Assembly (NCBI GenBank): GCA_026770025.1
Contig: JAMXDE010000004.1
Coordinates: 3,397,501 to 3,461,500, forward strand
Length of the DNA stretch: 64,000 nucleotides
From: Craspedostauros australis
Taxonomy: Eukaryota > Bacillariophyta > Bacillariophyceae > Mastogloiales > Achnanthaceae
Reading direction: 5' to 3'
Shown here: positions 1,541 to 57,132 of the stretch, one piece after another
How the letters are laid out: each line of letters starts with the position of its first letter
Numbering within the stretch: the stretch's first letter is position 1
Made by a program: the position numbers and the translations under genes
Notes under the pieces: model-generated
Seen by the model: the letters and a program-made list of their open reading frames with translations, nothing else
The model's database searches: none
What the model was told of the DNA's origin: nothing

Positions 1541-4500
1541 TCATTTCTGTCCTCCGTCTCCGCCTGCTGCTGTCGGTCCCGCCAGAGCGATATTCTCCTT
1601 GTCATGCACTGCGGACACCGCCGACGCTTCTGGTGCAGTCGATCTCATCGTCTGCGCATGCTTCTCGCGGGCCCGCTGCACCATCTCTTGCACGAGCTCC
1701 TCGCCGCGATTCTCCCACTCGCGTTTGTTCTCGCGTGCGTACGTCAGGCAATCCGACGACGACGAACCAAACACGCCGCAGGTCCGCAGCTTCTGCGCGA
1801 TGGGAATCACGAAGTTGTCGAAGAACCACAGCTCACTCTGGAACCAGCCGATGCTGGGATCGCGCGGCGATCGTCCGGCCTGGTGGGCGTTGTACATTTC
1901 CTGAAACAACCGTTCGTTCCATTTCTTGTAGATCGACCAGCTCTGCATCGTGGGGCTGATGTCGGCGGCCTGCAGCAAGCAGATCAGCACCATGGTGGCC
2001 TTCTGCTCCATGTCCGTCTGATCTTCGGCCTCGCGGGGTCTGGGTGCATTACTGCGCGAGTGCTCCTCTTCCAAGTACCCATCTAAGGCAAAGGCCTGCT
2101 CCCACTTCTCCAAACGCGTCAGTTTCAGGCGAGGGTTGAAGATCTCCGTGGAGATCACCAGGTTCACAACGTACAGACGGAACTGGGACAGCTCCTGCAT
2201 GTTGTCGCAGATGCAGTCCACGAGTTCCTTGTAGTCCCGCGTCATGAGCAGGGTCCAGGCAATCTGGAAGGAATTCTGCTCCAACGTGCATTGGTCCGAA
2301 TGCTCGGCGACCAGCGGTGATGATTCGTTGGACAGCTGGCCGTTGGGCACGCCTGGGTGATCGACGTCATGAATCAACGCGGCGAAGACGACGGCAAAGC
2401 GCACCAACGCGTTGGATGCGATGCCGTACGTCATGTCGTGGATACGATCAGGATCGGAGAGGATGCCGCCGTTGCTGTTGGTGTAGTTGCCGATGCGCTT
2501 CAGAAGCTTCACGGCAGACATCGTGACGTGCGCGCAGTGATCCAGATCATGGAATGGGACCTTGCGGTACTTGCGGCAGATCGTGGAGACGTACTTGCGC
2601 AGTTGTACGTTGACGAGAGACGGCAGCTGTACGGACTGGTTGACCTTCATACCTGTCGTCGCATTGCAGCGCAGCGGCATTGGGAAGATGTACGTGATTT
2701 CATCCAGGTCGACCTTTTTGGTCTTGGGTGAGGTCTTCCCATCTCCTATGGCACTGCCGCCACCGCCACCGCCAACACTGCTGTCATCACCATCCTTCAT
2801 CGGCGCCAAGTCGAACGATATTGCCTTCTTCGTGGCGTCGTTGCGTTTCTTGCCTTCCCGTTCTGCGATGATGTGTCGCAACTGCTCGGACAGAATTTCA
2901 GACAGCCATTCCACAACGCGATTGCTGCGATCGCCGTGGGAGGCGTTGCTGTGCTGCGAGTTTTGACGACGGCCGATACCTGACCCCCGTCGAAGGACTC
3001 CGCCACCTTCTCCACCGGCTGCTGCAGTGGCCTTGATACCACCCGAGTTCGCTCCACCATTGGCAAGCTCAACGTCGCTGACCTTCCATTCGTTGCTCTG
3101 GTTGGCATGCATCGACAGATCTGTGGTACCGAATACGTCAGACATCTCGGCTGACCCACCAGCTGACGGTCGTTGCAAGTGCGGCTGGCTTTCCAACACG
3201 TTCCTGTTGTGTCCCGTGTTGCCCGTGAGCCAATACGTGACGAGCATACCCTTGCCCTTCGCGTGCACAGCATCTTCGCGCAGCGTCAACCACGATGCCT
3301 TGCCGCTCTCCTTGAGCAAGTCGGCCGTGTGCTCCGACACCTGGATGCGGTTCTTGCGTCCCGTCGATTGCATGCGGCTGGCCGTGTTGATGGTGTCACC
3401 GAACAGTTGGAATCTTGCCTTTTCCCCCACCAGCACACCGGCCGTGACCGGGCCGCTGTGCATGCCGACGCGCAACCGCAGATCCATGGTGTCGCGGCCC
3501 AGCGTGCTCTGCAGGATACGAATATGTTGATGGCAGTGCGTCATGCAGTCCCTGGCGAATCGAGCCATGCGAGGCGCGTGGTCGTTCTGTGGATCTGGCA
3601 ATCCTGTCACGGCGACGTAGCAATCTGAGATGGTCTCCACCTTGAAGACCTGCCGGCGTCGTGCCAAGTTGTCCATGTTGCGGAAAAGGAACTCAAGCAA
3701 CGTGAATATCTGTTGATGATTATGCGTACGTACATATGCACAGTAAAAGAGAGGTTGAGACACAAGTGGTGAGGAGATAGTATTCGCAACCGAATCAACG
3801 TAGCAGCACATTCAACGTGGCAGCACATTCAACGTGACAGCACATACGGCAAGGACTTACCTGGTCCGGTTCCCGATTCGCGCTCCAAACATCAAAACCG
3901 GCAACGTCGATGAAACAGACGGTGCAATTTGGAAACAAATCCGCGATGGGTTGCTGCGTGATGGTGGATGATTTGCCAGATGGCGTCGTTCCCGGTGTGA
4001 TCATGTCCTTGGGTATGTGCTTCGTGAGCGGGTGGCTTGTCTTGCCTGTCAGCATGGGACGGAATTGCTGCGGGAACATCTGCGTGACGATCATCTGGTT
4101 CTCGTGGGATGATTGCTGGATGGTCCGGATCTGTCGATAGATGGTGGTGTCGTAATAGTAGAGGCTGGTGAAGACGATGATGAAGAGGGCGATGATGCCC
4201 AGGCCCATCGTGTACGGCAGCAAGGTGATGTAGTCCCCCTGGAAGGCATCGGATGGGTACACATGGACGGCGTGTTGGCAGAAGGAGGTCTTGATGCTAC
4301 CAAGATCGCGAGAATCGCTTTGCAGCGACAGGGTACGCCTCATGGAATCGTACCCTCGGTCATGGGCATCTTCGTAGCCCATGAATCGCACCTCGTTGTT
4401 GCCCCTCAGTTCCATGGAGAAGACTGTGTCGTCACAGGTGTTCTCAACCACGCAGACGATGTTGTGGTTGTCCATGGTCGAGTTGAACTGCAGGAACGTC

Positions 4501-27430: not shown

Positions 27431-30400
27431 ATGCTGCAAAACAAGAAGCAGCATCACTGCGAGACATCGCCAAAACGAAAGCTGAGAACGGCCGCCGAAG
27501 TCATCAATCGCTTGAAATGGTCCGGCATCGAAGAAGCGTCGCCGTCCAACGTGCTCATGGGATACGACTGCAGGATCAACGGACCGATGGAGAAGTGCGT
27601 CGAAGACTACACCAACATCAATGAAGGTGGCGACATTCCCGAGCACCGGATCCAGTACTTCCGCAAGACCGTGAAGCCGGCGCCTGACGATGCGGAACTT
27701 TCGCGCAGCGTCATGTGGGATAGAGCCGCACGCGTGGATCGGTTGTTTGGCTCCGGCCACGGCAATAGCATCCTGCCGGCGCCGCAGACGGTACACAACA
27801 TCCGTATGGCGATGCAGACCATGCGACGACTTGCCGAAGAACGCAAGGAAAGGATGGAGGAGAAGAGGAAGCAACGAGCACGCAAGGCGGCCAGGCAAAC
27901 GGCGGCTGCGAAAGCGAATGCAATGAAGAATGGCCACACCGCGCCATCGTCGCAGTTGGCAACATCTGGAGGAACAATTCAAACTTCAGGATCATCCAAC
28001 AACTCAACGAAGTCGCATTTTCCACAGAGGCATTGTTGGAAGAATCTGCCAGGCTCCTACGCATTCAATCCAAAAGTGACACCCGCATCCACACAGACTG
28101 AGAACAACCAGCAGCAGCACTGCATACAAGCACATGCGAATGCTACCAAACTGCAAAGCGATGACGATGACTTGAAGCTCGTCACGTGGAACGTGCTGTT
28201 CGATCTCCATCGCGATGCGAACGACAAGCTGGCACAGGGCGACGACAGCCTCTTGTCTGATTCCGACTCCACATGCGATCGATGGCAGCGGTTGATGGAC
28301 GATCTGGAGCGTTCAAATGCGGACATTATCGCACTTCAAGAAGTGACGCCACGATTTCTCAAGCTGTTGGAACGACAACCGTGGGTTCGAAGGACGTACG
28401 CCCTGTCTGATGTGCACTCGCGTTGGCAAAGCACCAGAGCGTACGGCAACGTGATGTTGTGGAACAAGACCAAATTCGAAGCCGACGATAGCTTTGTTTG
28501 TGTGGAAGGCGACCGTGACAGAGGCATGATCGTGACATTGCTGCACGGCACACGCGTGTACAACGTCGCTAATGTTCATCTGCCTGCTGACAAGTTTGAT
28601 CATGATACGCAGACCACCAGCACGAGGTCACAAGCGCGGCGACGAGAACTTGCAGCCTTTGTTGCTAAGCTGCAGCTGATTCAGAGGGAGCAAGAGGCAA
28701 CGCAGATACGTCCCGTCACCTTCATCATGGGAGACTTCAATGACGGTGCGGATGCCATCCCGTATGCCTCGGCCAGGTACTTTGACGATGCTTGGGTGTC
28801 ATCGAAGAGCAAGGGCGAGCACCATTGCACCTTCGACTGGAAGACCAATGCCCGAGCCAACAAGACGAGGCAGTACGGCCATGCCGAGAATCCTCCACGA
28901 CGAATCGACAGAATCTTCGTCGTCAAAGATGTCACGATGCCGAATAGACTCCCAATCCAACCAATGGAGGCGTCGTTGTTGGGCAGACATCATTCCGACC
29001 CGTTGCCACCATCAGATCACTACGGCGTGTGCGTTCGATTCGAGCAGCGTGGTCTTTCGCAAACGGCACATTCACGAATGGAAGCATCATCGTCGGCCAT
29101 CGACTGCAATGCATGGGCTGCAACGGTTCCAACAAGCACCGATTCGATCCTTGCCATCCAGCTCAATCAGAAGCAGTTCTATGGCCTGGATATGTACGAT
29201 CGCGCATCTTCCCTCCCAATCCCGCACATCACCCTCATGTACGGATTCGTTGAACTCTCCAATGCCAACGCGATGGACATGGCCACGCGCGGTGTCAAGA
29301 TGGCGATTCAAAGTACGTTCGCACAGCAACCGGACGGGTTCCATCTGCCGATTGATGCAGCTTCCTTCCGTGTCTTTGAGCATGCGCAGTCATCATCGCT
29401 TGTGTACACTCCCAACATGTCGGATCCTCGCACCAGATGGTTGCAAGATCTGTACGCCGTACTGCGAGTTGCATTCCCCAACTGCCACGATCAGGAAAGC
29501 CGTTTCAAGGATGGATGGACACCTCATATCTCGCTGGGCAAGTATGCAACCGTCGACGCTGCCAGACAACAGCTGCAACGCATTCGCTTTCATTTTGAGA
29601 ACCAACCGAAGCAGCGCACCAATGCCCAATCCAATATGCAAGAAGATGCTGCATGTCTGGATTGCCACTCCGTGGGGATCTTCCGACGCAGCAGTCTCGA
29701 CAAGAGCTTCTACTGCTGCGGATCGATTCCGCTCGCGGGACAAGACAAAGCGAAAATCCCGGTCAATGCAACGAAGTCCTTCATTAATGACAGCGGGTCC
29801 AGCCGCAAGAGCTTCTTCGATGGTACTGCGTGCGGAACGTTGCACGAAATCGAGCGAGCCTGCCACACAGTTGCCGCGAAACAGTTTGGAGATGCAGTCG
29901 AGGTGCAGATGCGTCCATTCGGCTCTCATGCCACGCGCTCGACCTTGCCGGGCATCTCCGACGTTGACATGGTTGTAGTCCTGCGGTCCAAGGCTCGTGG
30001 TGACGATGTGAACCTGATGGAAAGCAACGCGGATGAATTCTTCAACGCCCTGCAAGTCCGTATCAAGTCATTGCATGGACAGAGCAGATGCCGACTGAGA
30101 ACATCCAACGCTTCAGGCCGCGTCTTGTCTGTGCTGACAGTGAGGCTTATGCCTGCAACGCCAGCTGTCGACATCCAAATCTGCTTCGAAGACGGGGATG
30201 GCCAACCATTGGACAGTGCCAGTGCAGCAGCTCTTGCATCAGTCCACGACGTCGATATCATCGTGGAAAGGCTGCGCCAGATCGCAACACAGGTTCATGA
30301 AAATCACACGAACATGGTCGATACATTCTCCGGAGCACTCAGGATCATCAAACTTTGGGCATCGCGTCGACAGATCTACGGAACTGGCGTGGGGTACCTG

Positions 30401-31306
30401 GGTGGATATGGATGGACCATCTGGCTTGCTTCTATCCTGTTCCATGATCTTGCCAATGGATCGCTCGTCCTTCCTACCAATCAGCCCGCGCAGGACACGC
30501 AAACGCAAACGTACCAGCAGAAGCAGCAGAGAGATGCCATCAACACTATCGTGGTCCACTTCTTCAAAGCAGCCAACCACATGCGCCATTCCAGTCCGTT
30601 GCTGGTCATGCTACCCAAAGAGATGTACACTGCGGAAAGCATCAACAGCATGGATGCAGCAAAACAAGTCGCTACGAAACGCAAGACTATGGCGGTGGTC
30701 GCACCAGTGAGCGGTGGCAACTGTGCTCGTAGTTCCACGCCGTCGACGACGCAGAGCATCATCGATGAAATCACAAGGGCTGCCAGCATGACACAAAACG
30801 CAGTCGGTGATGATGGAACTGTTTCCATTGATGCGTTGGTCCACACGCTGTTGCCGTTCAATGCTGAGATCGAAGAAGGCAACAGCAGCAGCAGTGGCAG
30901 CACCCATTGCCTCGTGTTGCAAATCAACCAACGACACAACGAGGAAAGGCTCCTTCCAGCACAAGTGAAGCATTGGGGATCGTTGCACTTGTTGCAAACA
31001 GTGTTGGCGACGGAGTCCTTCTTCAACCAGACGGATTCGATTCGACCATCTTCCAAGATGTACCGGAGCAGGACGAATGCGGCAGGCGGCGGTGGTGCTG
31101 GTGGAGATTTTGCCTTCGTCATCCAGATCAAGAACAACGTCTCATTTGAGCAACCCAAACTGAAGGATTGGTTGCAGGAACGCAATGCCATCTTGAATGC
31201 CAGTCAGCGCGTTGCCCTGCCGAATGCGGAGGTGTCCTTGTCGTTTGTCGATAGTGATGAGCTCAACGCGTTTGCCGGTGGCCATACAAGATCATCTGCA
31301 GAATAA
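27431..31306 (+). CDS. Four-domain RNA end-processing/repair protein (MJ1316 + EEP + 2H + poly(A)-polymerase-type NTase)
   Basis: A single uninterrupted exon for 1291 residues. (1) About 20-105: MJ1316/DUF504 RNA cyclic-end recognition domain, with EVINRLKWSG, MGYDCRINGPMEKC, GGDIPEHRIQYFRK and VMWDRAARVDRLFGSG. (2) A Lys/Arg helix, then an endonuclease/exonuclease/phosphatase domain at about 248-535 with LKLVTWNVLFD, IIALQEVT, IMGDFNDG and PPSDHYGV holding the catalytic Asn, Glu, Asp and His. (3) A 2H phosphoesterase at about 555-725 with its two HxT/S motifs, PHITLMYGF and PHISLGKY. (4) A poly(A)-polymerase/OAS-like nucleotidyltransferase from about 800, with FGSHATRSTLPGISDVDMVV and the third Asp in AVDIQICFED, then a PAP-like central domain (LRIIKLWASRR, YLGGYGWTIWLASI). 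A C-terminal region with low-complexity inserts ends the protein. Cyclic-phosphate ends could be recognised, opened or trimmed and then extended by one chain. There is no organelle signal. An AATAAA overlaps the stop codon. Confidence 0.9.
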   Translation: MLQNKKQHHCETSPKRKLRTAAEVINRLKWSGIEEASPSNVLMGYDCRINGPMEKCVEDYTNINEGGDIPEHRIQYFRKTVKPAPDDAELSRSVMWDRAARVDRLFGSGHGNSILPAPQTVHNIRMAMQTMRRLAEERKERMEEKRKQRARKAARQTAAAKANAMKNGHTAPSSQLATSGGTIQTSGSSNNSTKSHFPQRHCWKNLPGSYAFNPKVTPASTQTENNQQQHCIQAHANATKLQSDDDDLKLVTWNVLFDLHRDANDKLAQGDDSLLSDSDSTCDRWQRLMDDLERSNADIIALQEVTPRFLKLLERQPWVRRTYALSDVHSRWQSTRAYGNVMLWNKTKFEADDSFVCVEGDRDRGMIVTLLHGTRVYNVANVHLPADKFDHDTQTTSTRSQARRRELAAFVAKLQLIQREQEATQIRPVTFIMGDFNDGADAIPYASARYFDDAWVSSKSKGEHHCTFDWKTNARANKTRQYGHAENPPRRIDRIFVVKDVTMPNRLPIQPMEASLLGRHHSDPLPPSDHYGVCVRFEQRGLSQTAHSRMEASSSAIDCNAWAATVPTSTDSILAIQLNQKQFYGLDMYDRASSLPIPHITLMYGFVELSNANAMDMATRGVKMAIQSTFAQQPDGFHLPIDAASFRVFEHAQSSSLVYTPNMSDPRTRWLQDLYAVLRVAFPNCHDQESRFKDGWTPHISLGKYATVDAARQQLQRIRFHFENQPKQRTNAQSNMQEDAACLDCHSVGIFRRSSLDKSFYCCGSIPLAGQDKAKIPVNATKSFINDSGSSRKSFFDGTACGTLHEIERACHTVAAKQFGDAVEVQMRPFGSHATRSTLPGISDVDMVVVLRSKARGDDVNLMESNADEFFNALQVRIKSLHGQSRCRLRTSNASGRVLSVLTVRLMPATPAVDIQICFEDGDGQPLDSASAAALASVHDVDIIVERLRQIATQVHENHTNMVDTFSGALRIIKLWASRRQIYGTGVGYLGGYGWTIWLASILFHDLANGSLVLPTNQPAQDTQTQTYQQKQQRDAINTIVVHFFKAANHMRHSSPLLVMLPKEMYTAESINSMDAAKQVATKRKTMAVVAPVSGGNCARSSTPSTTQSIIDEITRAASMTQNAVGDDGTVSIDALVHTLLPFNAEIEEGNSSSSGSTHCLVLQINQRHNEERLLPAQVKHWGSLHLLQTVLATESFFNQTDSIRPSSKMYRSRTNAAGGGGAGGDFAFVIQIKNNVSFEQPKLKDWLQERNAILNASQRVALPNAEVSLSFVDSDELNAFAGGHTRSSAE

Positions 31307-31469: not shown

Positions 31470-32474
31470 TCATTTCTGCGCCAACTCCTTCTCCAACGAT
31501 TCGACCTTTGCCTCCAGCGCTTCCAATCTTGGAATAAGGGCCGCCAGTGCATTCTCGGAATACTTGCCGAGCACATCGACCTCGATGTTCAGCTTGCCAT
31601 CCACCATCTTGCTCGGAATGATAATCTTCTTCTGCGTGTAATCGACCAACATGAATGTGAACCACTTCTCCTGCGCGTTGACCTCGACCACCGTCAAGCT
31701 CGTTCCATCGATGGCGATGAAGCCCTTCGGCACGATGTACTTCAAAATATTCGCATCGACCTGCACTTTGTAAAACAGGGAATCTTCATCCTGCCACCGA
31801 TCAATCACGGTGCCGACGCCGTCGACGTGACCTTGCACGAAATGTCCCGAATTGCGACCGCCAATTTCCGAGGCACGTTCCAAGTTGAGGGGCTCGCCTG
31901 CCTGCAGATCCGTGAAGTAGGTGCGTCGCAACGTTTCGGGTGCCAGACCGACGCGGAAGACGTTGTTGTCAAAATCCAATTCGGTCGCCGTCAAGCAAAC
32001 GCCGTTGACGCAGATGCTGCATCTGTTTGGTTCCGACAGTAAGAGAAGGCATGGAATGGAATGCAACGAAATGGATTGAAGGCGTGATGAAAGATGAAAC
32101 AGGGTGTCAGAAATAGATTGGCACACGGACACACAAAGAGATGAACAGTTCAAACGGTGCATTGTACGGCAACAGAATAACCCGTTCCTTGTGATGTAAT
32201 CCAACACCACACATCACACGTACCCCAAGTATGCGCCATCCATGACGACTTCGCCCTTGACCGTGAGCTCGGTGCCCTTCCCCTTGGTGCCATCCCAAAG
32301 CATCATGTCATCACGTTCCTCCAACGAAACCACGCTTCCCATCTCCTCCACGATTCCGGTGAACATCCCGCATGCTGTGTTCTGCACTCGTCCGCCACCG
32401 CTGAACGGCACGAAACCTGCCGCGAACGGAAGCAGCACGATCGTGGCGAATATATTTGTTGCAATCGCCATCAT
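31470..32474 (-). CDS. Riboflavin synthase, plastid-targeted
   Basis: Two exons on the minus strand, 32474-32224 and 32022-31470, with a 201-bp GT-AG intron in phase 2 (267 residues). The enzyme makes riboflavin plus pyrimidinedione from two molecules of dimethyl-ribityl-lumazine, the last step of vitamin B2 synthesis. Residues 1-20 are a signal peptide that ends in an ASAF-like PFAAGFVPF, marking import into the secondary plastid. The enzyme's own start, MFTGIVEEMGSV, lies at residue 37. The splice restores YLGCSICVNGVCLTA, matching the family's G-D-S-x-x-V-N-G-V-C-L-T block. The second lumazine-binding barrel has NSGHFVQGHVDGVG and GTSLTVVEVN. The C-terminus adds a short coiled coil (LEALEAKVESLEKEL). 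It converges on the RNA-repair-like gene, 163 bp away. Confidence 0.93.
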
Positions 32475-45309: not shown

Positions 45310-48300
45310 TCAAAATAGAATGTGTTGTGATTGCTCTCGTCTTCGTGGACCTGATTGTGGCTTGGTCAACATATCAGCCAGGTTGGTCTCCGATGGTTCA
45401 TATTGGATGACTGCCACTCCTGCCGCCACATTCTCTCGGACAAAGTGATATGCAATTGCGTTGGCTTTCTTTCTCAGTTGTGATTCGGGTGCGGATGCGT
45501 TGTAGACGACGCTCTGGTTGTCAACTCGGATATCTGCCGGTCCCTCCAAAGGCACACCCATCATTCGAAGCTTGTATCTCATGCCAATCACAATCTCCAT
45601 GGCGACCTTGAGTGCTGTGAATTCTGAACCAAATGTCGATGTCTCGATTCCATTCTGCTTCTTGCTGTACCATAAGATGGGTGAGGAATTCAAGAAAAGT
45701 AAAACACCTGTTCGAGATCGTCGTGTGTATTGATCTCCTACATGATCTGCATCAACAAAACACGTCATCTGCACTTCTTTGCCTCTTGGTTTTGGCATAT
45801 CATGTGGTATCAATTCGCGTGCGTCTGGGTAGAAGGATGCCCAATCTGGTGTTGGAATGGTGTTCTTCTTGACGTATGCATCGTCAAACACCAAACGTGA
45901 TCGGTCATGTGAGTTGAGATAGGCAAACATATGGAAAAGTACACGCAAATGCCCTGTTCTGGGGGCAGCACAGTATGAAGACATCATGCTTGTCTCGCAG
46001 CATATGTCGATCCGCCCCAACTCGACGATCCACCTCAGGATCCCAATCAGCTGTTGATAGTAGTTCATCTCCTCTGGATCACAAAGGGCGGTGGCGTCAA
46101 GCTCTGGACGGTATCCGTTTGGTATTACGCTTTTCGCGCTGGTACGGAATTTACCGCCACGGGCCTCAAGCCATTTCTGCGCCATCTTTGTGACCTCTCG
46201 GACGTATCGCTGGGATCCCATACTCCACTTCGGCCGCTCCGGTTCTGCTGTGAGATGGAATGGAGCGATTGTAGAGCCGAGGTATGTTGTTGGTGGACCG
46301 ATCGAGGCGGGTTTGAGAAAGAAGTAAGAACCAATGTGTGAGAGTATCGCGCTGGGATCTTTGGAGATCGCCAGAATGTCATCAGTGTACACGAGGATGT
46401 ACTCGTAATATTCAGACCCATCGCTCGTCACTGCTGGCTTCATCCAAACATCGCTGTCTGCACGACACGAGGTGAATCCAAGTGAGTTCTGCAGTGTCTC
46501 TGCAAGGTGTGCCCTCCAGGCAGCGCCGCTTGACTTGAGCCCATAGAGTGCGCGACAGATTATCGCTACCTTGCCTGCGTCTGCCCCGAACTCAGGTCCA
46601 CATGTTGTGTAGACGCGTTCGCGGCATGGCGCGTTGAGGTATGCGTTCATCACATCTGCTGCAAGCACATCGAGGTCGTTCAGCGCCGCCAAGAGGAATG
46701 CGATTCGCACACTTTCGCGTGTCACCACACTGGCATATGTTATGCTGGATGGTGCTTCAGTCATGTGACCGCCTGCCACAAGTCGCGCCTTCCGTGTGAG
46801 GTCGACTTTGATATCGAAGATCATGTGACATGCAATGTAGGTGTGCCCGACTGGTGGCTTCGTGTCTTCGGTCTTGATGTCGAAAGCTGGTCGAACGTTC
46901 TTCATCTCTTTCTCTAACGCTTTGCGCCAGAAGTCGGTTCCTGTCTCCTCGTCGATCGCAAGAGCACGTTGGACGCTCTTCGGTAGTTCGAGACCATATT
47001 TCTCATTTCGTCGGAAGTATTGTTTGCGGTTGGCCATCAGGATGCGGTTGCGCCGCTTCATTGTGTATGGAACCCACCATCGAAAGGCAGGCTCATTGGT
47101 GAGCTGGTTGTTGGTTGCGTATTCGGCTGTCTTCACAGGATCAGCCTCCTTGGCATCGCGTAAATGAATCCATGATGTAGATCCGTCTTTCCATAACACA
47201 CACAGCTTCCATCCCTTTGTTGTCTTCGTAGCTGTCTTGTCATCAGCGGTTGCTGCAGTAGGAAGTCGCTTGTGGTCAATGATGTCCTCCATCAGGAGCG
47301 TCGTGTATCCGTCGTCGTCTGTTCGTGCGTAAATATTTTCTGCGATCTGATTCGCATTGAACACTTCGCTGTGCCCGTCGACAAATTCAACCTCATACAT
47401 GGATGTGTCAAGAAGTGGATTTGAATGTGAGTGACCAATCAGCTTCCCGCTCGCATCGCGTTTTCGGCGCTTCACAGTACCAAATTGGATGTCATCACCC
47501 GCAGGTAGCTTGACTCGAGCGGACAGATATCGATCATATGCGTCTTCGTCGGCGTCAGCTGGCTCTATCAAAGGTTCCAGTGATGTGGTCTGCTCCAGGA
47601 ATGCAATGTCTTCGGCTGTGTCGTCGACGTCGTCTCCGTCGTCCCCTGGCTTGATGCCTTCCATTCGATCTTTCCATTTGTTTCGTAGATTGGACATGAA
47701 GTCGGATTGTTGCTGTTTAACTGCTTCACTGTTGAGGTCGACATCGGATAAAGGAATGACAGAGGATTTAGAAACAACAGCGCCAGAAGATGTGAGAATG
47801 TACGAGCACATCGCCTCACCCACGGCCTTCGACGGACCGAGGTAGCGACCAAGATGTTTTGTGTTCATGTTTGCTCCCTGGAGATTCATGTACCACACAA
47901 AGTCGAACCACCCAAATTCTGAAATGTGTGAGATGTCGGTGGTGTCGCCAGTCAGGATTGTAGTTGGTGTCTGGCCATGTAGATCATATATCTGAAGTGC
48001 TGTGTTGCTTCGAATCTCTGCACAGTACTCAAAACAATAATCCCACAGGTATGCAGGTGTGTTCGTCGATGTCATAAGCCGCCGATATTGACGTCGAAGT
48101 TCTCTGATCGTTGCCTCCGCTTTGTTCTGATTGTGAATATACGCCTCCACGGGACGGATTGAGACTTGAGCTTTGAGAAGTTTGCTCTTGAAGTTGCCCT
48201 CAACTAGCTCTCGTGCATTGTCTGGTATCATTGTGTGTGGGATGCCGTAGTCTCTGAATAGCTCATCGAGTGTCTGTGCGGCCTCTCGCCTTGCCGCCAT

Positions 48301-49245
48301 TGGGTACACTTTGACCCAATGAAATGGTGTACAATAGATCATTGCACAGATGTTCCCACGTATGGACTTTGTCTTCGCGAACATCGTGTCAGTGTACATT
48401 TGTGTGTTGAGGCGTCGGTACCGGAGCTGCATCGCATAAGGATTGAGTCGACGTGTTCCTGTCGTTGTAGTGAAATCACGGACTGCCAATTGCGTTGTCA
48501 CATCGAGTGTTCGTCTTGCTGCTTCGATTCCGATTCGCCATCTTGCTGCCAGCTGCTCTGGCGTTATCGTCCCCTTTCGATTCGAGGTACGCGTGTGATG
48601 TATTGTTCGATTGTCATGCTCGTATCTGATCGGTGATTCAATATGCATCTGTTGATCTGCTTGAAGTTTCGCACGTATCGCTGCTTCATCGTCCCCTGAC
48701 GACAGCTGTGATGGATCCCAATATGCATCTGATGTCATGTATACATGGACGCAATCTCTGTCGGACTGTATCTCGTCTCGCGTCGGTTGTCGAATATGGA
48801 AATAGGATACCGTTCCGTTCAGCTGAAGTGGGATGTGCAAATCATGATGTGAAGAAAGAATAGAATGTGAGTATGAATGACGATTCTCCTCTGGTAGCAT
48901 GACCAAAGGTGTCTCATTGACGATAATACCCGCCATGCGCATTTGATGCGGACACAATAGCGGATGAGGAAGAGTTTCAAAATATAGTGATTGAGGAAAG
49001 AAGAGGATGTAAGTGGTGTACGAAACAGGATCGTCATACGCAATCGCTGCTGTGACAATTGGTACGTTTGTGACGTCCCCCAATGTGTCCAAGAATGGCG
49101 ATGTTGTGACGGTCTGTGTAGTTCGGTGTACAATGTATGCAGTAGTACCAAAAGCACAAGTGTCAGCATGTGAGTCCAATTCGGCTCTCGGTGTCTCAGA
49201 TGGAAGGGACTGGCTGATCGCCGTTGCATGGCGTCGCCCTCCCAC
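45310..49245 (-). CDS. pol: Copia pol polyprotein, copy A (fossil-type entry)
   Basis: A frame of about 1311 codons. In order it holds an aspartic protease region, a DDE integrase with its C-terminal part, a Copia-type reverse transcriptase and RNase H. Integrase ahead of reverse transcriptase places it in Ty1/Copia. It looks whole. Confidence 0.92.
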   Translation of the reverse strand: MGGRRHATAISQSLPSETPRAELDSHADTCAFGTTAYIVHRTTQTVTTSPFLDTLGDVTNVPIVTAAIAYDDPVSYTTYILFFPQSLYFETLPHPLLCPHQMRMAGIIVNETPLVMLPEENRHSYSHSILSSHHDLHIPLQLNGTVSYFHIRQPTRDEIQSDRDCVHVYMTSDAYWDPSQLSSGDDEAAIRAKLQADQQMHIESPIRYEHDNRTIHHTRTSNRKGTITPEQLAARWRIGIEAARRTLDVTTQLAVRDFTTTTGTRRLNPYAMQLRYRRLNTQMYTDTMFAKTKSIRGNICAMIYCTPFHWVKVYPMAARREAAQTLDELFRDYGIPHTMIPDNARELVEGNFKSKLLKAQVSIRPVEAYIHNQNKAEATIRELRRQYRRLMTSTNTPAYLWDYCFEYCAEIRSNTALQIYDLHGQTPTTILTGDTTDISHISEFGWFDFVWYMNLQGANMNTKHLGRYLGPSKAVGEAMCSYILTSSGAVVSKSSVIPLSDVDLNSEAVKQQQSDFMSNLRNKWKDRMEGIKPGDDGDDVDDTAEDIAFLEQTTSLEPLIEPADADEDAYDRYLSARVKLPAGDDIQFGTVKRRKRDASGKLIGHSHSNPLLDTSMYEVEFVDGHSEVFNANQIAENIYARTDDDGYTTLLMEDIIDHKRLPTAATADDKTATKTTKGWKLCVLWKDGSTSWIHLRDAKEADPVKTAEYATNNQLTNEPAFRWWVPYTMKRRNRILMANRKQYFRRNEKYGLELPKSVQRALAIDEETGTDFWRKALEKEMKNVRPAFDIKTEDTKPPVGHTYIACHMIFDIKVDLTRKARLVAGGHMTEAPSSITYASVVTRESVRIAFLLAALNDLDVLAADVMNAYLNAPCRERVYTTCGPEFGADAGKVAIICRALYGLKSSGAAWRAHLAETLQNSLGFTSCRADSDVWMKPAVTSDGSEYYEYILVYTDDILAISKDPSAILSHIGSYFFLKPASIGPPTTYLGSTIAPFHLTAEPERPKWSMGSQRYVREVTKMAQKWLEARGGKFRTSAKSVIPNGYRPELDATALCDPEEMNYYQQLIGILRWIVELGRIDICCETSMMSSYCAAPRTGHLRVLFHMFAYLNSHDRSRLVFDDAYVKKNTIPTPDWASFYPDARELIPHDMPKPRGKEVQMTCFVDADHVGDQYTRRSRTGVLLFLNSSPILWYSKKQNGIETSTFGSEFTALKVAMEIVIGMRYKLRMMGVPLEGPADIRVDNQSVVYNASAPESQLRKKANAIAYHFVRENVAAGVAVIQYEPSETNLADMLTKPQSGPRRREQSQHILF

Positions 49246-49251
49246 CTCATG

Positions 49252-50748
49252 TCAGGATTGGCCTTGTTGATTGCGACGTGTCATGAATGCCCCGATGCCG
49301 TTCTTACGCTGGTCGGCAGAGGCACTTCCCGAGGCAACAGGAGTCGTCGCGTCCTGACTATCTGTTCGCTGACGTTTGTTCTGTCCTTGCGTATCAAGTG
49401 ATGCAACTCCTCTTCTCGCATCTCGTTCTTGTCGAAGTGCAATGGCACGTGCACGCTGAGCGGCAGACATGACTGCCCATTCTTCTCGGTCGTAATATCT
49501 GTCGGTCACGTTCATGTTGGCATTGTATTGTGGTTTGCCTTTGTCGCCGCCTTTACCACGTCCGCCCCTGCCACCCCGGCCTTGGCCTCCACCGCCACCT
49601 GAGCGGCCTCGGTTCTTCCTGTTATTGCCTTGCATCCCTGCAATACGTCGACTTGTTGTTGTGTCAGTGCGCTGATCAAGAGACTCTGCAAGATAGTTCA
49701 TCGTTCGATGAAAGCTGGTCTTGTACGTTTTTGTTGCTCGTACGACTTCGCATGCTGGGAACAGACGTTGGTCTCTGATTCCTCGCATAAGGCGTCTGAC
49801 TTTTGCTTCTTCCATCTGCGGTTCACCTCCCTGCGCAAGATCTTCAAAGGCTGCATTCAATCGCTGCGCGTACATCTCAAACGTGAAGTTTCGTGCTCTT
49901 CCGTCGAAATATGTTTCTGCGATCGTTTTGTCAGCCAATGCTTTCGTGCGTGCTTGAAATGAGTCTCCACGATAGTGTTGTTCAAGCGCCTGATGAGCTG
50001 CTCGTCCGTCTTTCGATCTCTCGAATCCCTGTACCCAATTCCACGCAGGACCACCGTGTGTTGCAGCTCGAACGACTTGCCAAACTGCTGCTCTGTCTGC
50101 TTTGTAAATGGAACCGGAATGGGGTGCACGGTCAATCAGCTCGTCCAACATGGTTGGTTCTCCAAATGATGTTGTGACAGCGGGAATTCTGTCCTCTGGC
50201 TTCTCTGAGTCTGGTCGAACAACGTATGCAAGTGGAATGTCTTGACTCCCAAGTGTGTTGTCCAAGTAATTGCGGATGTCCTCGAGTGTCTCTCTGACTG
50301 AGTCCACCTTGGTGAGTAGCTCGGGTGTTGGTAGAGGATCACTGCTCTTGATTCGTTTCTCGTCTTTAAATAAGGTCCAAGCTGCGTTGAGTCGGGGTAG
50401 TGTGGCACCTGATGATGTAAATGATCGTTGAATGCGGCTGTAGTGAAAGCGAAGGTAGCGAAGCTTCCGCAATCGCATCTCATATACCCATCCAAGAGGC
50501 ACTCCTGGGTTGCGGATCATTACCGGTGTCCCAGAGACTGGCTTTGAGGGTACGTATGATGGATTTGCGATGTAACCACTGCCTTTCCGAATGCGTTCAC
50601 ACAACGCTTGTATGTCGTCGTCGTCGAATGAAAGCAGGTCGTCAAATGAAGATATTCCCTGCTCCTTGATCGCTTCACCAATTGTATCATCCGGAAACAG
50701 TAGCACATTGCGAAAGTAATTCTGGATTTCGGCTGCTGCTCCTGCCAT
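49252..50748 (-). CDS. gag: Copia gag, copy A
   Basis: A frame of 498 codons ahead of pol. It has a helical capsid-like N-terminal and central region and a Gly/Arg-rich basic C-terminal part suited to nucleic-acid binding. It looks whole. Gag and pol are consecutive reading frames. Confidence 0.85.
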   Translation of the reverse strand: MAGAAAEIQNYFRNVLLFPDDTIGEAIKEQGISSFDDLLSFDDDDIQALCERIRKGSGYIANPSYVPSKPVSGTPVMIRNPGVPLGWVYEMRLRKLRYLRFHYSRIQRSFTSSGATLPRLNAAWTLFKDEKRIKSSDPLPTPELLTKVDSVRETLEDIRNYLDNTLGSQDIPLAYVVRPDSEKPEDRIPAVTTSFGEPTMLDELIDRAPHSGSIYKADRAAVWQVVRAATHGGPAWNWVQGFERSKDGRAAHQALEQHYRGDSFQARTKALADKTIAETYFDGRARNFTFEMYAQRLNAAFEDLAQGGEPQMEEAKVRRLMRGIRDQRLFPACEVVRATKTYKTSFHRTMNYLAESLDQRTDTTTSRRIAGMQGNNRKNRGRSGGGGGQGRGGRGGRGKGGDKGKPQYNANMNVTDRYYDREEWAVMSAAQRARAIALRQERDARRGVASLDTQGQNKRQRTDSQDATTPVASGSASADQRKNGIGAFMTRRNQQGQS

Positions 50749-51693: not shown

Positions 51694-54600
51694 TCAAAAT
51701 AGAATGTGTTGTGATTGCTCTCGTCTTCGTGGACCTGATTGTGGCTTGGTCAACATATCAGCCAGGTTGGTCTCCGATGGTTCATATTGGATGACTGCCA
51801 CTCCTGCCGCCACATTCTCTCGGACAAAGTGATATGCAATTGCGTTGGCTTTCTTTCTCAGTTGTGATTCGGGTGCGGATGCGTTGTAGACGACGCTCTG
51901 GTTGTCAACTCGGATATCTGCCGGTCCCTCCAAAGGCACACCCATCATTCGAAGCTTGTATCTCATGCCAATCACAATCTCCATGGCGACCTTGAGTGCT
52001 GTGAATTCTGAACCAAATGTCGATGTCTCGATTCCATTCTGCTTCTTGCTGTACCATAAGATGGGTGAGGAATTCAAGAAAAGTAAAACACCTGTTCGAG
52101 ATCGTCGTGTGTATTGATCTCCTACATGATCTGCATCAACAAAACACGTCATCTGCACTTCTTTGCCTCTTGGTTTTGGCATATCATGTGGTATCAATTC
52201 GCGTGCGTCTGGGTAGAAGGATGCCCAATCTGGTGTTGGAATGGTGTTCTTCTTGACGTATGCATCGTCAAACACCAAACGTGATCGGTCATGTGAGTTG
52301 AGATAGGCAAACATATGGAAAAGTACACGCAAATGCCCTGTTCTGGGGGCAGCACAGTATGAAGACATCATGCTTGTCTCGCAGCATATGTCGATCCGCC
52401 CCAACTCGACGATCCACCTCAGGATCCCAATCAGCTGTTGATAGTAGTTCATCTCCTCTGGATCACAAAGGGCGGTGGCGTCAAGCTCTGGACGGTATCC
52501 GTTTGGTATTACGCTTTTCGCGCTGGTACGGAATTTACCGCCACGGGCCTCAAGCCATTTCTGCGCCATCTTTGTGACCTCTCGGACGTATCGCTGGGAT
52601 CCCATACTCCACTTCGGCCGCTCCGGTTCTGCTGTGAGATGGAATGGAGCGATTGTAGAGCCGAGGTATGTTGTTGGTGGACCGATCGAGGCGGGTTTGA
52701 GAAAGAAGTAAGAACCAATGTGTGAGAGTATCGCGCTGGGATCTTTGGAGATCGCCAGAATGTCATCAGTGTACACGAGGATGTACTCGTAATATTCAGA
52801 CCCATCGCTCGTCACTGCTGGCTTCATCCAAACATCGCTGTCTGCACGACACGAGGTGAATCCAAGTGAGTTCTGCAGTGTCTCTGCAAGGTGTGCCCTC
52901 CAGGCAGCGCCGCTTGACTTGAGCCCATAGAGTGCGCGACAGATTATCGCTACCTTGCCTGCGTCTGCCCCGAACTCAGGTCCACATGTTGTGTAGACGC
53001 GTTCGCGGCATGGCGCGTTGAGGTATGCGTTCATCACATCTGCTGCAAGCACATCGAGGTCGTTCAGCGCCGCCAAGAGGAATGCGATTCGCACACTTTC
53101 GCGTGTCACCACACTGGCATATGTTATGCTGGATGGTGCTTCAGTCATGTGACCGCCTGCCACAAGTCGCGCCTTCCGTGTGAGGTCGACTTTGATATCG
53201 AAGATCATGTGACATGCAATGTAGGTGTGCCCGACTGGTGGCTTCGTGTCTTCGGTCTTGATGTCGAAAGCTGGTCGAACGTTCTTCATCTCTTTCTCTA
53301 ACGCTTTGCGCCAGAAGTCGGTTCCTGTCTCCTCGTCGATCGCAAGAGCACGTTGGACGCTCTTCGGTAGTTCGAGACCATATTTCTCATTTCGTCGGAA
53401 GTATCGTTTGCGGTTGGCCATCAGGATGCGGTTGCGCCGCTTCATTGTGTATGGAACCCACCATCGAAAGGCAGGCTCATTGGTGAGCTGGTTGTTGGTT
53501 GCGTATTCGGCTGTCTTCACAGGATCAGCCTCCTTGGCATCGCGTAAATGAATCCATGATGTAGATCCGTCTTTCCATAACACACACAGCTTCCATCCCT
53601 TTGTTGTCTTCGTAGCTGTCTTGTCATCAGCGGTTGCTGCAGTAGGAAGTCGCTTGTGGTCAATGATGTCCTCCATCAGGAGCGTCGTGTATCCGTCGTC
53701 GTCTGTTCGTGCGTAAATATTTTCTGCGATCTGATTCGCATTGAACACTTCGCTGTGCCCGTCGACAAATTCAACCTCATACATGGATGTGTCAAGAAGT
53801 GGATTTGAATGTGAGTGACCAATCAGCTTCCCGCTCGCATCGCGTTTTCGGCGCTTCACAGTACCAAATTGGATGTCATCACCCGCAGGTAGCTTGACTC
53901 GAGCGGACAGATATCGATCATATGCGTCTTCGTCGGCGTCAGCTGGCTCTATCAAAGGTTCCAGTGATGTGGTCTGCTCCAGGAATGCAATGTCTTCGGC
54001 TGTGTCGTCGACGTCGTCTCCGTCGTCCCCTGGCTTGATGCCTTCCATTCGATCTTTCCATTTGTTTCGTAGATTGGACATGAAGTCGGATTGTTGCTGT
54101 TTAACTGCTTCACTGTTGAGGTCGACATCGGATAAAGGAATGACAGAGGATTTAGAAACAACAGCGCCAGAAGATGTGAGAATGTACGAGCACATCGCCT
54201 CACCCACGGCCTTCGACGGACCGAGGTAGCGACCAAGATGTTTTGTGTTCATGTTTGCTCCCTGGAGATTCATGTACCACACAAAGTCGAACCACCCAAA
54301 TTCTGAAATGTGTGAGATGTCGGTGGTGTCGCCAGTCAGGATTGTAGTTGGTGTCTGGCCATGTAGATCATATATCTGAAGTGCTGTGTTGCTTCGAATC
54401 TCTGCACAGTACTCAAAACAATAATCCCACAGGTATGCAGGTGTGTTCGTCGATGTCATAAGCCGCCGATATTGACGTCGAAGTTCTCTGATCGTTGCCT
54501 CCGCTTTGTTCTGATTGTGAATATACGCCTCCACGGGACGGATTGAGACTTGAGCTTTGAGAAGTTTGCTCTTGAAGTTGCCCTCAACTAGCTCTCGTGC

Positions 54601-55629
54601 ATTGTCTGGTATCATTGTGTGTGGGATGCCGTAGTCTCTGAATAGCTCATCGAGTGTCTGTGCGGCCTCTCGCCTTGCCGCCATTGGGTACACTTTGACC
54701 CAATGAAATGGTGTACAATAGATCATTGCACAGATGTTCCCACGTATGGACTTTGTCTTCGCGAACATCGTGTCAGTGTACATTTGTGTGTTGAGGCGTC
54801 GGTACCGGAGCTGCATCGCATAAGGATTGAGTCGACGTGTTCCTGTCGTTGTAGTGAAATCACGGACTGCCAATTGCGTTGTCACATCGAGTGTTCGTCT
54901 TGCTGCTTCGATTCCGATTCGCCATCTTGCTGCCAGCTGCTCTGGCGTTATCGTCCCCTTTCGATTCGAGGTACGCGTGTGATGTATTGTTCGATTGTCA
55001 TGCTCGTATCTGATCGGTGATTCAATATGCATCTGTTGATCTGCTTGAAGTTTCGCACGTATCGCTGCTTCATCGTCCCCTGACGACAGCTGTGATGGAT
55101 CCCAATATGCATCTGATGTCATGTATACATGGACGCAATCTCTGTCGGACTGTATCTCGTCTCGCGTCGGTTGTCGAATATGGAAATAGGATACCGTTCC
55201 GTTCAGCTGAAGTGGGATGTGCAAATCATGATGTGAAGAAAGAATAGAATGTGAGTATGAATGACGATTCTCCTCTGGTAGCATGACCAAAGGTGTCTCA
55301 TTGACGATAATACCCGCCATGCGCATTTGATGCGGACACAATAGCGGATGAGGAAGAGTTTCAAAATATAGTGATTGAGGAAAGAAGAGGATGTAAGTGG
55401 TGTACGAAACAGGATCGTCATACGCAATCGCTGCTGTGACAATTGGTACGTTTGTGACGTCCCCCAATGTGTCCAAGAATGGCGATGTTGTGACGGTCTG
55501 TGTAGTTCGGTGTACAATGTATGCAGTAGTACCAAAAGCACAAGTGTCAGCATGTGAGTCCAATTCGGCTCTCGGTGTCTCAGATGGAAGGGACTGGCTG
55601 ATCGCCGTTGCATGGCGTCGCCCTCCCAC
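51694..55629 (-). CDS. pol: Copia pol polyprotein, copy B
   Basis: A near-identical partner of the copy A pol frame, 6384 bp away, with the same domain order. It looks whole. Confidence 0.92.
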   Translation of the reverse strand: MGGRRHATAISQSLPSETPRAELDSHADTCAFGTTAYIVHRTTQTVTTSPFLDTLGDVTNVPIVTAAIAYDDPVSYTTYILFFPQSLYFETLPHPLLCPHQMRMAGIIVNETPLVMLPEENRHSYSHSILSSHHDLHIPLQLNGTVSYFHIRQPTRDEIQSDRDCVHVYMTSDAYWDPSQLSSGDDEAAIRAKLQADQQMHIESPIRYEHDNRTIHHTRTSNRKGTITPEQLAARWRIGIEAARRTLDVTTQLAVRDFTTTTGTRRLNPYAMQLRYRRLNTQMYTDTMFAKTKSIRGNICAMIYCTPFHWVKVYPMAARREAAQTLDELFRDYGIPHTMIPDNARELVEGNFKSKLLKAQVSIRPVEAYIHNQNKAEATIRELRRQYRRLMTSTNTPAYLWDYCFEYCAEIRSNTALQIYDLHGQTPTTILTGDTTDISHISEFGWFDFVWYMNLQGANMNTKHLGRYLGPSKAVGEAMCSYILTSSGAVVSKSSVIPLSDVDLNSEAVKQQQSDFMSNLRNKWKDRMEGIKPGDDGDDVDDTAEDIAFLEQTTSLEPLIEPADADEDAYDRYLSARVKLPAGDDIQFGTVKRRKRDASGKLIGHSHSNPLLDTSMYEVEFVDGHSEVFNANQIAENIYARTDDDGYTTLLMEDIIDHKRLPTAATADDKTATKTTKGWKLCVLWKDGSTSWIHLRDAKEADPVKTAEYATNNQLTNEPAFRWWVPYTMKRRNRILMANRKRYFRRNEKYGLELPKSVQRALAIDEETGTDFWRKALEKEMKNVRPAFDIKTEDTKPPVGHTYIACHMIFDIKVDLTRKARLVAGGHMTEAPSSITYASVVTRESVRIAFLLAALNDLDVLAADVMNAYLNAPCRERVYTTCGPEFGADAGKVAIICRALYGLKSSGAAWRAHLAETLQNSLGFTSCRADSDVWMKPAVTSDGSEYYEYILVYTDDILAISKDPSAILSHIGSYFFLKPASIGPPTTYLGSTIAPFHLTAEPERPKWSMGSQRYVREVTKMAQKWLEARGGKFRTSAKSVIPNGYRPELDATALCDPEEMNYYQQLIGILRWIVELGRIDICCETSMMSSYCAAPRTGHLRVLFHMFAYLNSHDRSRLVFDDAYVKKNTIPTPDWASFYPDARELIPHDMPKPRGKEVQMTCFVDADHVGDQYTRRSRTGVLLFLNSSPILWYSKKQNGIETSTFGSEFTALKVAMEIVIGMRYKLRMMGVPLEGPADIRVDNQSVVYNASAPESQLRKKANAIAYHFVRENVAAGVAVIQYEPSETNLADMLTKPQSGPRRREQSQHILF

Positions 55630-55635
55630 CTCATG

Positions 55636-57132
55636 TCAGGATTGGCCTTGTTGATTGCGACGTGTCATGAATGCCCCGATGCCGTTCTTACGCTGGTCGG
55701 CAGAGGCACTTCCCGAGGCAACAGGAGTCGTCGCGTCCTGACTATCTGTTCGCTGACGTTTGTTCTGTCCTTGCGTATCAAGTGATGCAACTCCTCTTCT
55801 CGCATCTCGTTCTTGTCGAAGTGCAATGGCACGTGCACGCTGAGCGGCAGACATGACTGCCCATTCTTCTCGGTCGTAATATCTGTCGGTCACGTTCATG
55901 TTGGCATTGTATTGTGGTTTGCCTTTGTCGCCGCCTTTACCACGTCCGCCCCTGCCACCCCGGCCTTGGCCTCCACCGCCACCTGAGCGGCCTCGGTTCT
56001 TCCTGTTATTGCCTTGCATCCCTGCAATACGTCGACTTGTTGTTGTGTCAGTGCGCTGATCAAGAGACTCTGCAAGATAGTTCATCGTTCGATGAAAGCT
56101 GGTCTTGTACGTTTTTGTTGCTCGTACGACTTCGCATGCTGGGAACAGACGTTGGTCTCTGATTCCTCGCATAAGGCGTCTGACTTTTGCTTCTTCCATC
56201 TGCGGTTCACCTCCCTGCGCAAGATCTTCAAAGGCTGCATTCAATCGCTGCGCGTACATCTCAAACGTGAAGTTTCGTGCTCTTCCGTCGAAATATGTTT
56301 CTGCGATCGTTTTGTCAGCCAATGCTTTCGTGCGTGCTTGAAATGAGTCTCCACGATAGTGTTGTTCAAGCGCCTGATGAGCTGCTCGTCCGTCTTTCGA
56401 TCTCTCGAATCCCTGTACCCAATTCCACGCAGGACCACCGTGTGTTGCAGCTCGAACGACTTGCCAAACTGCTGCTCTGTCTGCTTTGTAAATGGAACCG
56501 GAATGGGGTGCACGGTCAATCAGCTCGTCCAACATGGTTGGTTCTCCAAATGATGTTGTGACAGCGGGAATTCTGTCCTCTGGCTTCTCTGAGTCTGGTC
56601 GAACAACGTATGCAAGTGGAATGTCTTGACTCCCAAGTGTGTTGTCCAAGTAATTGCGGATGTCCTCGAGTGTCTCTCTGACTGAGTCCACCTTGGTGAG
56701 TAGCTCGGGTGTTGGTAGAGGATCACTGCTCTTGATTCGTTTCTCGTCTTTAAATAAGGTCCAAGCTGCGTTGAGTCGGGGTAGTGTGGCACCTGATGAT
56801 GTAAATGATCGTTGAATGCGGCTGTAGTGAAAGCGAAGGTAGCGAAGCTTCCGCAATCGCATCTCATATACCCATCCAAGAGGCACTCCTGGGTTGCGGA
56901 TCATTACCGGTGTCCCAGAGACTGGCTTTGAGGGTACGTATGATGGATTTGCGATGTAACCACTGCCTTTCCGAATGCGTTCACACAACGCTTGTATGTC
57001 GTCGTCGTCGAATGAAAGCAGGTCGTCAAATGAAGATATTCCCTGCTCCTTGATCGCTTCACCAATTGTATCATCCGGAAACAGTAGCACATTGCGAAAG
57101 TAATTCTGGATTTCGGCTGCTGCTCCTGCCAT
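55636..57132 (-). CDS. gag: Copia gag, copy B
   Basis: A 498-codon frame with the same predicted protein as copy A gag. It looks whole. Confidence 0.85.
   Translation of the reverse strand: MAGAAAEIQNYFRNVLLFPDDTIGEAIKEQGISSFDDLLSFDDDDIQALCERIRKGSGYIANPSYVPSKPVSGTPVMIRNPGVPLGWVYEMRLRKLRYLRFHYSRIQRSFTSSGATLPRLNAAWTLFKDEKRIKSSDPLPTPELLTKVDSVRETLEDIRNYLDNTLGSQDIPLAYVVRPDSEKPEDRIPAVTTSFGEPTMLDELIDRAPHSGSIYKADRAAVWQVVRAATHGGPAWNWVQGFERSKDGRAAHQALEQHYRGDSFQARTKALADKTIAETYFDGRARNFTFEMYAQRLNAAFEDLAQGGEPQMEEAKVRRLMRGIRDQRLFPACEVVRATKTYKTSFHRTMNYLAESLDQRTDTTTSRRIAGMQGNNRKNRGRSGGGGGQGRGGRGGRGKGGDKGKPQYNANMNVTDRYYDREEWAVMSAAQRARAIALRQERDARRGVASLDTQGQNKRQRTDSQDATTPVASGSASADQRKNGIGAFMTRRNQQGQS

Follow-up and report, generated by a model that had tools for sequence, protein, structure and literature searches.

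Gene structure and domain composition

The window, a stretch of 64,000 nucleotides of the Craspedostauros australis genome, carries on its forward strand a single-exon gene whose reading frame runs from an ATG start to a TAA end with no internal stops and encodes a protein of 1291 amino acids (Table 1). The earlier note had described four modules with intact key motifs in one frame and one exon, and both points were borne out by the Pfam matches, all of which fall in the uninterrupted frame, and by the conserved catalytic residues. The peptides P0012 (Ditylum) and P0025 ('Odont...'), with MMETSP (transcriptome) sources or labels, each carry all four domains, arguing against several separate genes; the matches listed in the homologue search included no transcript of the window gene itself. 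The intact frame, the Pfam matches in one frame and the family profiles thus ruled out a chance frame or separate genes. No Rfam families were found in the window at gathering scores.

Table 1. Features of the four-domain gene and its product, with positions in the window
Feature	Residues	Positions	Strand	Evidence
Whole single-exon gene (MJ1316 - EEP - 2H - PAP-type nucleotidyltransferase)	1291 aa	27431..31306	+	
MJ1316 domain, predicted reader of RNA 2',3'-cyclic ends	19-79	27485..27667	+	PF04457, E 2e-5
Long helix joining MJ1316 and EEP	118-167	27782..27931	+	AlphaFold2 model
EEP metal-dependent phosphoesterase domain	251-530	28181..29020	+	PF03372, E 2.8e-16
2H phosphoesterase domain	590-722	29198..29596	+	PF13563, E 1e-9
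2H motif	H599-I-T601	29225-29233	+	
2H motif	H699-I-S701	29525-29533	+	
Nucleotidyltransferase palm	G831-S832, D844-x-D846, D914	29921..30172	+	
PAP_central signature	965-1002	30323..30436	+	PF04928, E 1.1e-12
C-terminal beta-alpha-beta-beta-alpha-beta (RRM-like) region, poly(A) polymerase-like		30905..31252	+	Secondary structure of model m4e11aaff9510

The domain search that had been proposed as a check gave the MJ1316 domain 25.6 bits in hmmscan, slightly below the Pfam cut-off of 26.3, and 30.7 bits, above that cut-off, in a six-frame search of the genome. Among 122 sequences including that of the window, R48 was conserved in 116, H72 in 120, R73 in 122 and D97 in 117. MJ1316 is reported to recognise RNA 2',3'-cyclic ends (PMC6514570). 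The AlphaFold2 block of the helix leading from this domain to the EEP domain has pLDDT values of 92-97 across most of its length and 77 at its end. In the EEP domain, the residues N254, E304, H383, D435, N437, D493, D529 and H530, with metal-binding or catalytic roles (N, E, H, D-x-N, D, D-H), are all present; of 121 sequences, at least 119 keep each of them, and the others have gaps there. A tree of the EEP domain built from 40 selected rows placed the window protein with that of Cylindrotheca closterium in a four-row group (100/96) and in a 15-row group (100/100). The 2H domain fits two H-x-[T/S] motifs, both histidines of which are kept in 120 of 120 sequences, the window included.

The nucleotidyltransferase was likewise recovered in the domain search through its PAP_central signature, the match to NTP_transf_2 (residues 824-858, E 0.013) being under its Pfam cut-off, and phmmer matched poly(A) polymerase chains (best E 5.4e-4). 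The palm G, S, D and D were aligned in 106 of 108 sequences and D914 in 101; GS..DxD is also present in P0044, P0048 and P0051 (the last gapped in the alignment) and is absent from P0040 only. Fold comparison covered the EEP and nucleotidyltransferase domains, as TDP2 and poly(A) polymerases took up its lists. For the EEP domain, TDP2 was the nearest fold and ANGEL2 scored lower, while canonical poly(A) polymerases headed both nucleotidyltransferase lists (Foldseek E 2e-14, versus 8.5e-7 for CdnC), and the alignment with yeast Pap1 extended to residue 742 of the AlphaFold2 model. Family profiles and the fold matches of this predicted structure thus support the identity of the domain, which combines GS...D-x-D, a third Asp, a PAP central domain and an RRM-like C-terminus as in nucleotidyltransferases of the poly(A) polymerase class.

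Distribution of the family and comparison with known proteins

The first homologue search returned at least 10 relatives, and a profile search over 7990 scored candidates found 150, of which 120 were used. In the resulting set of 123 proteins (122 distinct listed proteins plus that of the window), with domains called by family profiles, all four domains were present in 106, the window counted, and 102 of these share the window's order. Four-domain proteins, in three domain orders, occur in actinobacteria, diatoms, dinoflagellates, a fungus, a springtail and a planctomycete; the transferase is shortened in at least three of them (P0027, P0029 and P0110; 669-846 aa). A diatom-only architecture was rejected, since the profile search found relatives outside diatoms, and NCBI already labels bacterial members automatically as 'RNA repair domain-containing protein' or 'poly(A) polymerase'. 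When viral_contigs was scanned twice, 4 and 52 pattern stretches were obtained, and tblastn identified no relative encoded in any of them. No study of the four-domain protein or its gene pair was among the literature matches listed; the 2016 RNA repair survey of Burroughs and Aravind may already describe one or the other.

The actinobacterial MJ1316-EEP-2H-PAP proteins (e.g. P0054 of Streptomyces) share with the window protein the four domains and their order, the EEP residues, the 2H histidines and the nucleotidyltransferase residues, though the identity is 23% in alignment A3 and the first 2H motif is mostly H-x-N instead of the window's H-I-T. In human LENG9, MJ1316 is joined with a 2H domain, and the bacterial mini-proteins L086, L087 and L089 likewise share MJ1316 and 2H but have no match to EEP or nucleotidyltransferase. 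TDP2 acts on 5'-tyrosyl ends, and its matched chains have none of the other three domains. ANGEL2, the weaker match, belongs to the CCR4/deadenylase group. A C12orf65-like release factor is also fused to MJ1316, and its authors suggest a link to RNA repair (PMC6514570); this fusion and an MJ1316 plus RF-1 protein of the window's genome (L001) share MJ1316 with the family, but a peptidyl-tRNA hydrolase domain replaces the RNA-end enzymes.

Association with RNA ligase and kinase

The actinobacterial gene usually adjoins a gene for a ligase-kinase. By tblastn, a ligase-kinase homologue lay directly upstream on the same strand in 74 of 80 actinobacterial loci, ending -15 to 143 bp ahead of the healing gene (five loci were without it and one was at a contig edge); the gene caller called the healing gene in 60 of the 80 loci, and in 46 of these 60 the gene at position -1 was the ligase. 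The next most frequent neighbours were an alcohol dehydrogenase type (13/60 loci) and EF-Tu and EF-G (9/60 each), which we read as reflecting a shared chromosomal place. In 200 genomes of one family, that of the Streptomyces G001, the ligase-kinase query matched 60, MJ1316 matched 61 and both matched 59, and in all 59 the two genes lay on one strand within -20 to 177 bp; the Fisher p of this co-occurrence (3.6e-47) takes no account of kinship among the genomes, and G001, the centre of the sample, is itself counted. An example ligase-kinase examined by Pfam (L080) matched RNA_ligase (PF09414, E 9.6e-34) and AAA_33 (E 8.8e-22) with no recognised phosphatase domain, a function that 2H together with EEP could provide.

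In the window's genome, unlike the bacterial members examined, no ligase-kinase gene adjoins the healing gene; a ligase and a kinase are encoded elsewhere, on another contig and at a distance of about 160 kb. The ligase (L083), which shares 29% identity with the bacterial partner across 223 aa, has the same sequence as P0123, whose sources are MMETSP/EukProt (transcript-derived). The separate PNKP-like kinase (L085) matched the PDB chains 9drz (E 6.5e-18) and 9d8a, a Rhizopus kinase (E 2.1e-17), and PNKP (E about 6e-8). In the Ditylum version, a kinase is inserted within the healing protein; it shares 37% identity with L085 across 181 aa and 33% with the kinase of the ligase-kinase chain P0142 across 147 aa. 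Because the bacterial relatives examined are mostly paired with an RNA ligase-kinase and the diatom genome encodes a ligase and a kinase elsewhere, the stand-alone system envisaged in the earlier note is unlikely.

Discussion

The interpretation as RNA repair is thus partly supported: the domains, the intact residues and the bacterial gene context speak for it, but a stand-alone system is unlikely and the architecture is not special to a diatom. Considering these results, we propose that the window protein probably heals RNA ends, and possibly also refills them, within a heal-and-seal repair pathway. The domains, intact catalytic residues, conservation, actinobacterial pairing with a ligase-kinase, and diatom ligase and kinase all support this scenario, from which we infer the catalytic activities, their order, the RNA substrate and the joint action of the diatom ligase and kinase with the healing protein. 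Cleavage by a ribonuclease would generate a 5'-OH together with a 2',3'-cyclic phosphate; MJ1316 would dock on the cyclic end, 2H would open it to a 2'-phosphate and EEP would take off this phosphate, giving a clean 3'-OH to which the PAP-type transferase could add nucleotides; the 5'-OH would be phosphorylated by the separate PNKP-like kinase and the two ends sealed by the Rnl-type ligase (PF09414). In T4/Clostridium Pnkp-ligase and yeast Trl1, the heal-and-seal logic likewise combines kinase, end healing and ligase; the proposed arrangement here differs in using EEP with 2H as the phosphatase and in the extra nucleotidyltransferase. A precedent for the healing step is ANGEL2, an EEP enzyme reported to convert 2',3'-cyclic ends to 2',3'-OH via a 2'-phosphate, and 5'-P and 3'-OH ends are given as the substrate of RLIG1 (PMC13247085). 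A more tentative and rather doubtful extension is that, ahead of sealing, the transferase replaces nucleotides missing from the broken end, such that a tRNA missing a nuclease-removed base, for example, would become repairable; the diatom kit would then comprise the healing protein, kinase L085 and ligase L083, joined by the MJ1316-tagged ribosome-rescue factor L001.

The fusion of MJ1316 with a fungal-type tRNA ligase phosphodiesterase domain in P0010 and the similarity of L085 to PNKP and the Rhizopus kinase would also suit housekeeping RNA processing in the diatom, with healing in tRNA splicing or in a HAC1/XBP1-like mRNA splice instead of damage repair. This reading is unlikely, however, considering the patchiness in bacteria, where MJ1316 was matched in 61 of the 200 Streptomyces-family genomes. 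In a phylum sample of 296 genomes, only 2 had the healing protein at E<=1e-20, and G003, on which the sample was centred, was one of them. Such a patchy pair suits conditional repair better, and bacteria are not known to have eukaryote-type tRNA splicing. A transferase of the poly(A) polymerase class, whose C-terminal region is RRM-like, might instead belong to a factor that would clean 3' ends, whether cyclic or phosphorylated, and add a short tail for exonuclease destruction without sealing, though the tight bacterial pairing with a ligase-kinase makes little sense for pure decay and renders this quite improbable.

Oligonucleotide signalling, in which oligonucleotides of the 2'-5' or cyclic type would be made by the transferase and degraded by 2H and EEP, for which AKAP7 and PDE12 provide the comparison, is very improbable; a CBASS cyclase matched weakly in NCBIfam (E 0.15) and the presence of CdnC and PDE12 in the fold lists point to it, but canonical poly(A) polymerases top both nucleotidyltransferase lists and the bacterial partner is a ligase-kinase. 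Furthermore, at E<=0.01 neither the window protein nor the bacterial P0054 was matched by PADLOC, and its one match for L080 (mad3, E 0.0025, residues 457-482) was weak and fell on the P-loop stretch; a known anti-phage system was rejected on these results.

One four-part healing enzyme is shared by bacteria and several eukaryote groups in three domain orders, and the heal-and-seal pathway would exist in a two-gene version in Streptomyces and in a proposed three-gene version in the diatom. The near one-to-one tie to the ligase-kinase in the 200-genome sample makes the pathway definite and testable. The need for a template-independent polymerase in a repair enzyme is puzzling and can now be tested directly.

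Results

Domain architecture and conserved residues

The relative set combined 10 homologues from one search with the best 120 of 150 from a profile search, giving 122 distinct proteins, to which the window protein was added. The earlier note had placed MJ1316, EEP, 2H and PAP-type nucleotidyltransferase (NTase) domains in one chain. Family profiles found all four domains in 106 chains among these 122 listed proteins and the window protein. The domain order of the window protein was seen in 102 of the 106, the others being 2H-MJ1316-EEP-NTase in three (P0040 and P0044 of Symbiodinium and P0048 of Effrenium) and 2H-EEP-NTase-MJ1316 in one (P0067 of Fusarium), and this occurrence of one domain set in differing orders suggests that the four domains are functionally linked. 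By the same profiles, the remaining 17 chains comprised 13 with MJ1316-EEP-2H only, some of which may be fragments, and four with other partial sets.

With the window protein counted among the rows, EEP positions were conserved in 119 to 121 of 121 sequences, the exceptions being gaps, and both 2H histidines in 120 of 120. The first 2H motif was H-x-N in 72/120, nearly all bacterial-type rows, and the third position of the second motif was T or S in 106/120, the others being gaps or misaligned ends. The NTase G-S-D-D motif was found in 106 of 108 sequences and the third Asp in 101 of 108; at two alignment gaps, the motif is actually present in P0051 and absent from P0040, and the NTase is cut off in the short chains P0027, P0029 and P0110.

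Other MJ1316 fusions were observed. In the window's genome (L001:628-2658, contig C37), MJ1316 (E 1.4e-14) is fused to an RF-1-type peptidyl hydrolase (E 6.6e-21), the same kind of MJ1316/release-factor fusion as that which Burroughs and Aravind reported in 2019 (PMC6514570). In P0010 (1591 aa, source 'ena'), the partner of MJ1316 is a phosphodiesterase domain of the fungal tRNA ligase type.

Bacterial gene pair

Relatives were encoded in 204 stretches identified by scanning genome contigs; analysis continued with the 80 best loci, whose titles all name actinobacteria. At the example locus L080, the product of the gene immediately upstream combines an RNA ligase domain (PF09414, E 9.6e-34) with a P-loop kinase at its C-terminus (AAA_33, E 8.8e-22). 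A homologue of this ligase-kinase adjoins the healing gene, which encodes the four-domain protein, in 74 of the 80 loci, with gaps of -15 to 143 bp (tblastn). One locus (L073) stops at a contig edge, and tblastn found no homologue beside five (Catellatospora L044, Streptomyces L045, and Actinoplanes L061, L063 and L068); the genome of L061 (G003) holds a match to the ligase part on a different contig.

Among 200 genomes of the family of G001 (Streptomyces by title, G001 itself counted), the ligase-kinase query matched 60, MJ1316 61, and both 59. In all 59, the two matches lay side by side on the same strand, with -20 to 177 bp between them; the ligase match in G437 contains a stop. The sole ligase-only genome (G344) had a match limited to the ligase part. 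MJ1316-2H frames accounted for the MJ1316-only genomes G371 and G443 and for second MJ1316 copies in G001 and G437, three of the four being confirmed by Pfam. The system is patchy, because in the 296-genome sample of the G003 phylum just two genomes, one being G003 itself, yielded the healing protein at E<=1e-20.

Separate MJ1316-2H open frames (L086, L087, L088 and L089; 274-426 aa) were also seen in Streptomyces-family genomes, with or without the four-domain protein; L086, L087 and L089 were confirmed.

Ligase and kinase in the genome of the window

One PF09414 ligase (L083, 378 aa, E 4.2e-31) was found in the window's genome, with 29% identity to the bacterial partner over 223 aa; its sequence is the same as that of P0123, an entry drawn from sources that include MMETSP and EukProt. 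The kinase gene L085 lies on the same contig as the window gene, about 160 kb upstream. Its product matches PDB chain 9drz, chain 9d8a (from a Rhizopus kinase) and PNKP. There are also partial matches to the NCBIfam models for polynucleotide kinase-phosphatases, both eukaryotic and bacterial, with scores far under the whole-protein cut-offs. An AAA_33 kinase is on the ligase chain in 31 of 103 ligase homologues according to precomputed Pfam matches, P0138 and P0142 having been checked, and in the Ditylum healing protein P0012 a kinase is inserted at residues 891-1063, with 37% identity to L085 and 33% to the P0142 kinase. Bacterial and diatom-type kinases had the P-loop stretch alone in common in BLASTP.

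Precomputed Pfam matches also place additional protein-phosphatase-like domains, of dual-specificity or tyrosine type, on the ligase-kinase homologues P0176, P0180 and P0198, whose sources are Ectocarpus, an unnamed source and the rotifer Rotaria.

Phylogeny and other features of the window

In an EEP-domain tree of 40 chosen rows, the window protein grouped with P0001 of Cylindrotheca closterium (support 96/70), nested in a four-row group (100/96) and then in a 15-row group including Ditylum (100/100); three dinoflagellate rows formed the next branch (97/91), the root being the drawn root only. From this placement, the window gene looks native to diatoms. Elsewhere in the window, an RVT_2 match (E 1.5e-16) in the 1311-aa frame of the first frame-pair copy suggests that the two pairs are neighbouring copia-type retroelement copies.

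Other features of the window
Feature	Position	Strand
Single frame with guanylate cyclase and cyclic-nucleotide phosphodiesterase (PDEase_I) domains	1541-3811	-
Gene with lumazine-binding (riboflavin synthase type) domain, convergent to the window gene	31470-32210	-
Frame pair, first copy (1311 aa and 498 aa)	45310-50748	-
Frame pair, second copy (equal lengths)	51694-57132	-

Discussion

The window protein adds a new member to a known family whose names come from automatic annotation. Among the matches listed in literature searches, neither the four-domain protein nor the gene pair was the subject of a study; the key 2016 survey lay outside these searches, and we thus make no claim of first description.

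Sealing by ligases of the PF09414 class, as by T4 Rnl-type enzymes, requires a 3'-OH. PMC13247085 gives the same requirement for RLIG1, and describes ANGEL2 as an EEP enzyme that carries out a cyclic-end opening and dephosphorylation reaction via a 2'-phosphate. In the putative pathway that we propose, 2H would open the cyclic end and EEP would then dephosphorylate it, leaving a 3'-OH for the ligase, and the NTase may next refill lost nucleotides or tail ends that could not be sealed. Pfam recognised no phosphatase domain in the L080 ligase-kinase, in which about 265 residues between the two domains were unmatched. Rival explanations for the system are tail-and-decay, housekeeping splicing of tRNA or mRNA, and oligonucleotide signalling. 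As for the proposed end-healing and sealing, the kinase occurs variously on the ligase chain, on the chain of the healing protein or by itself, which ties the ligase and the healing protein into one putative pathway.
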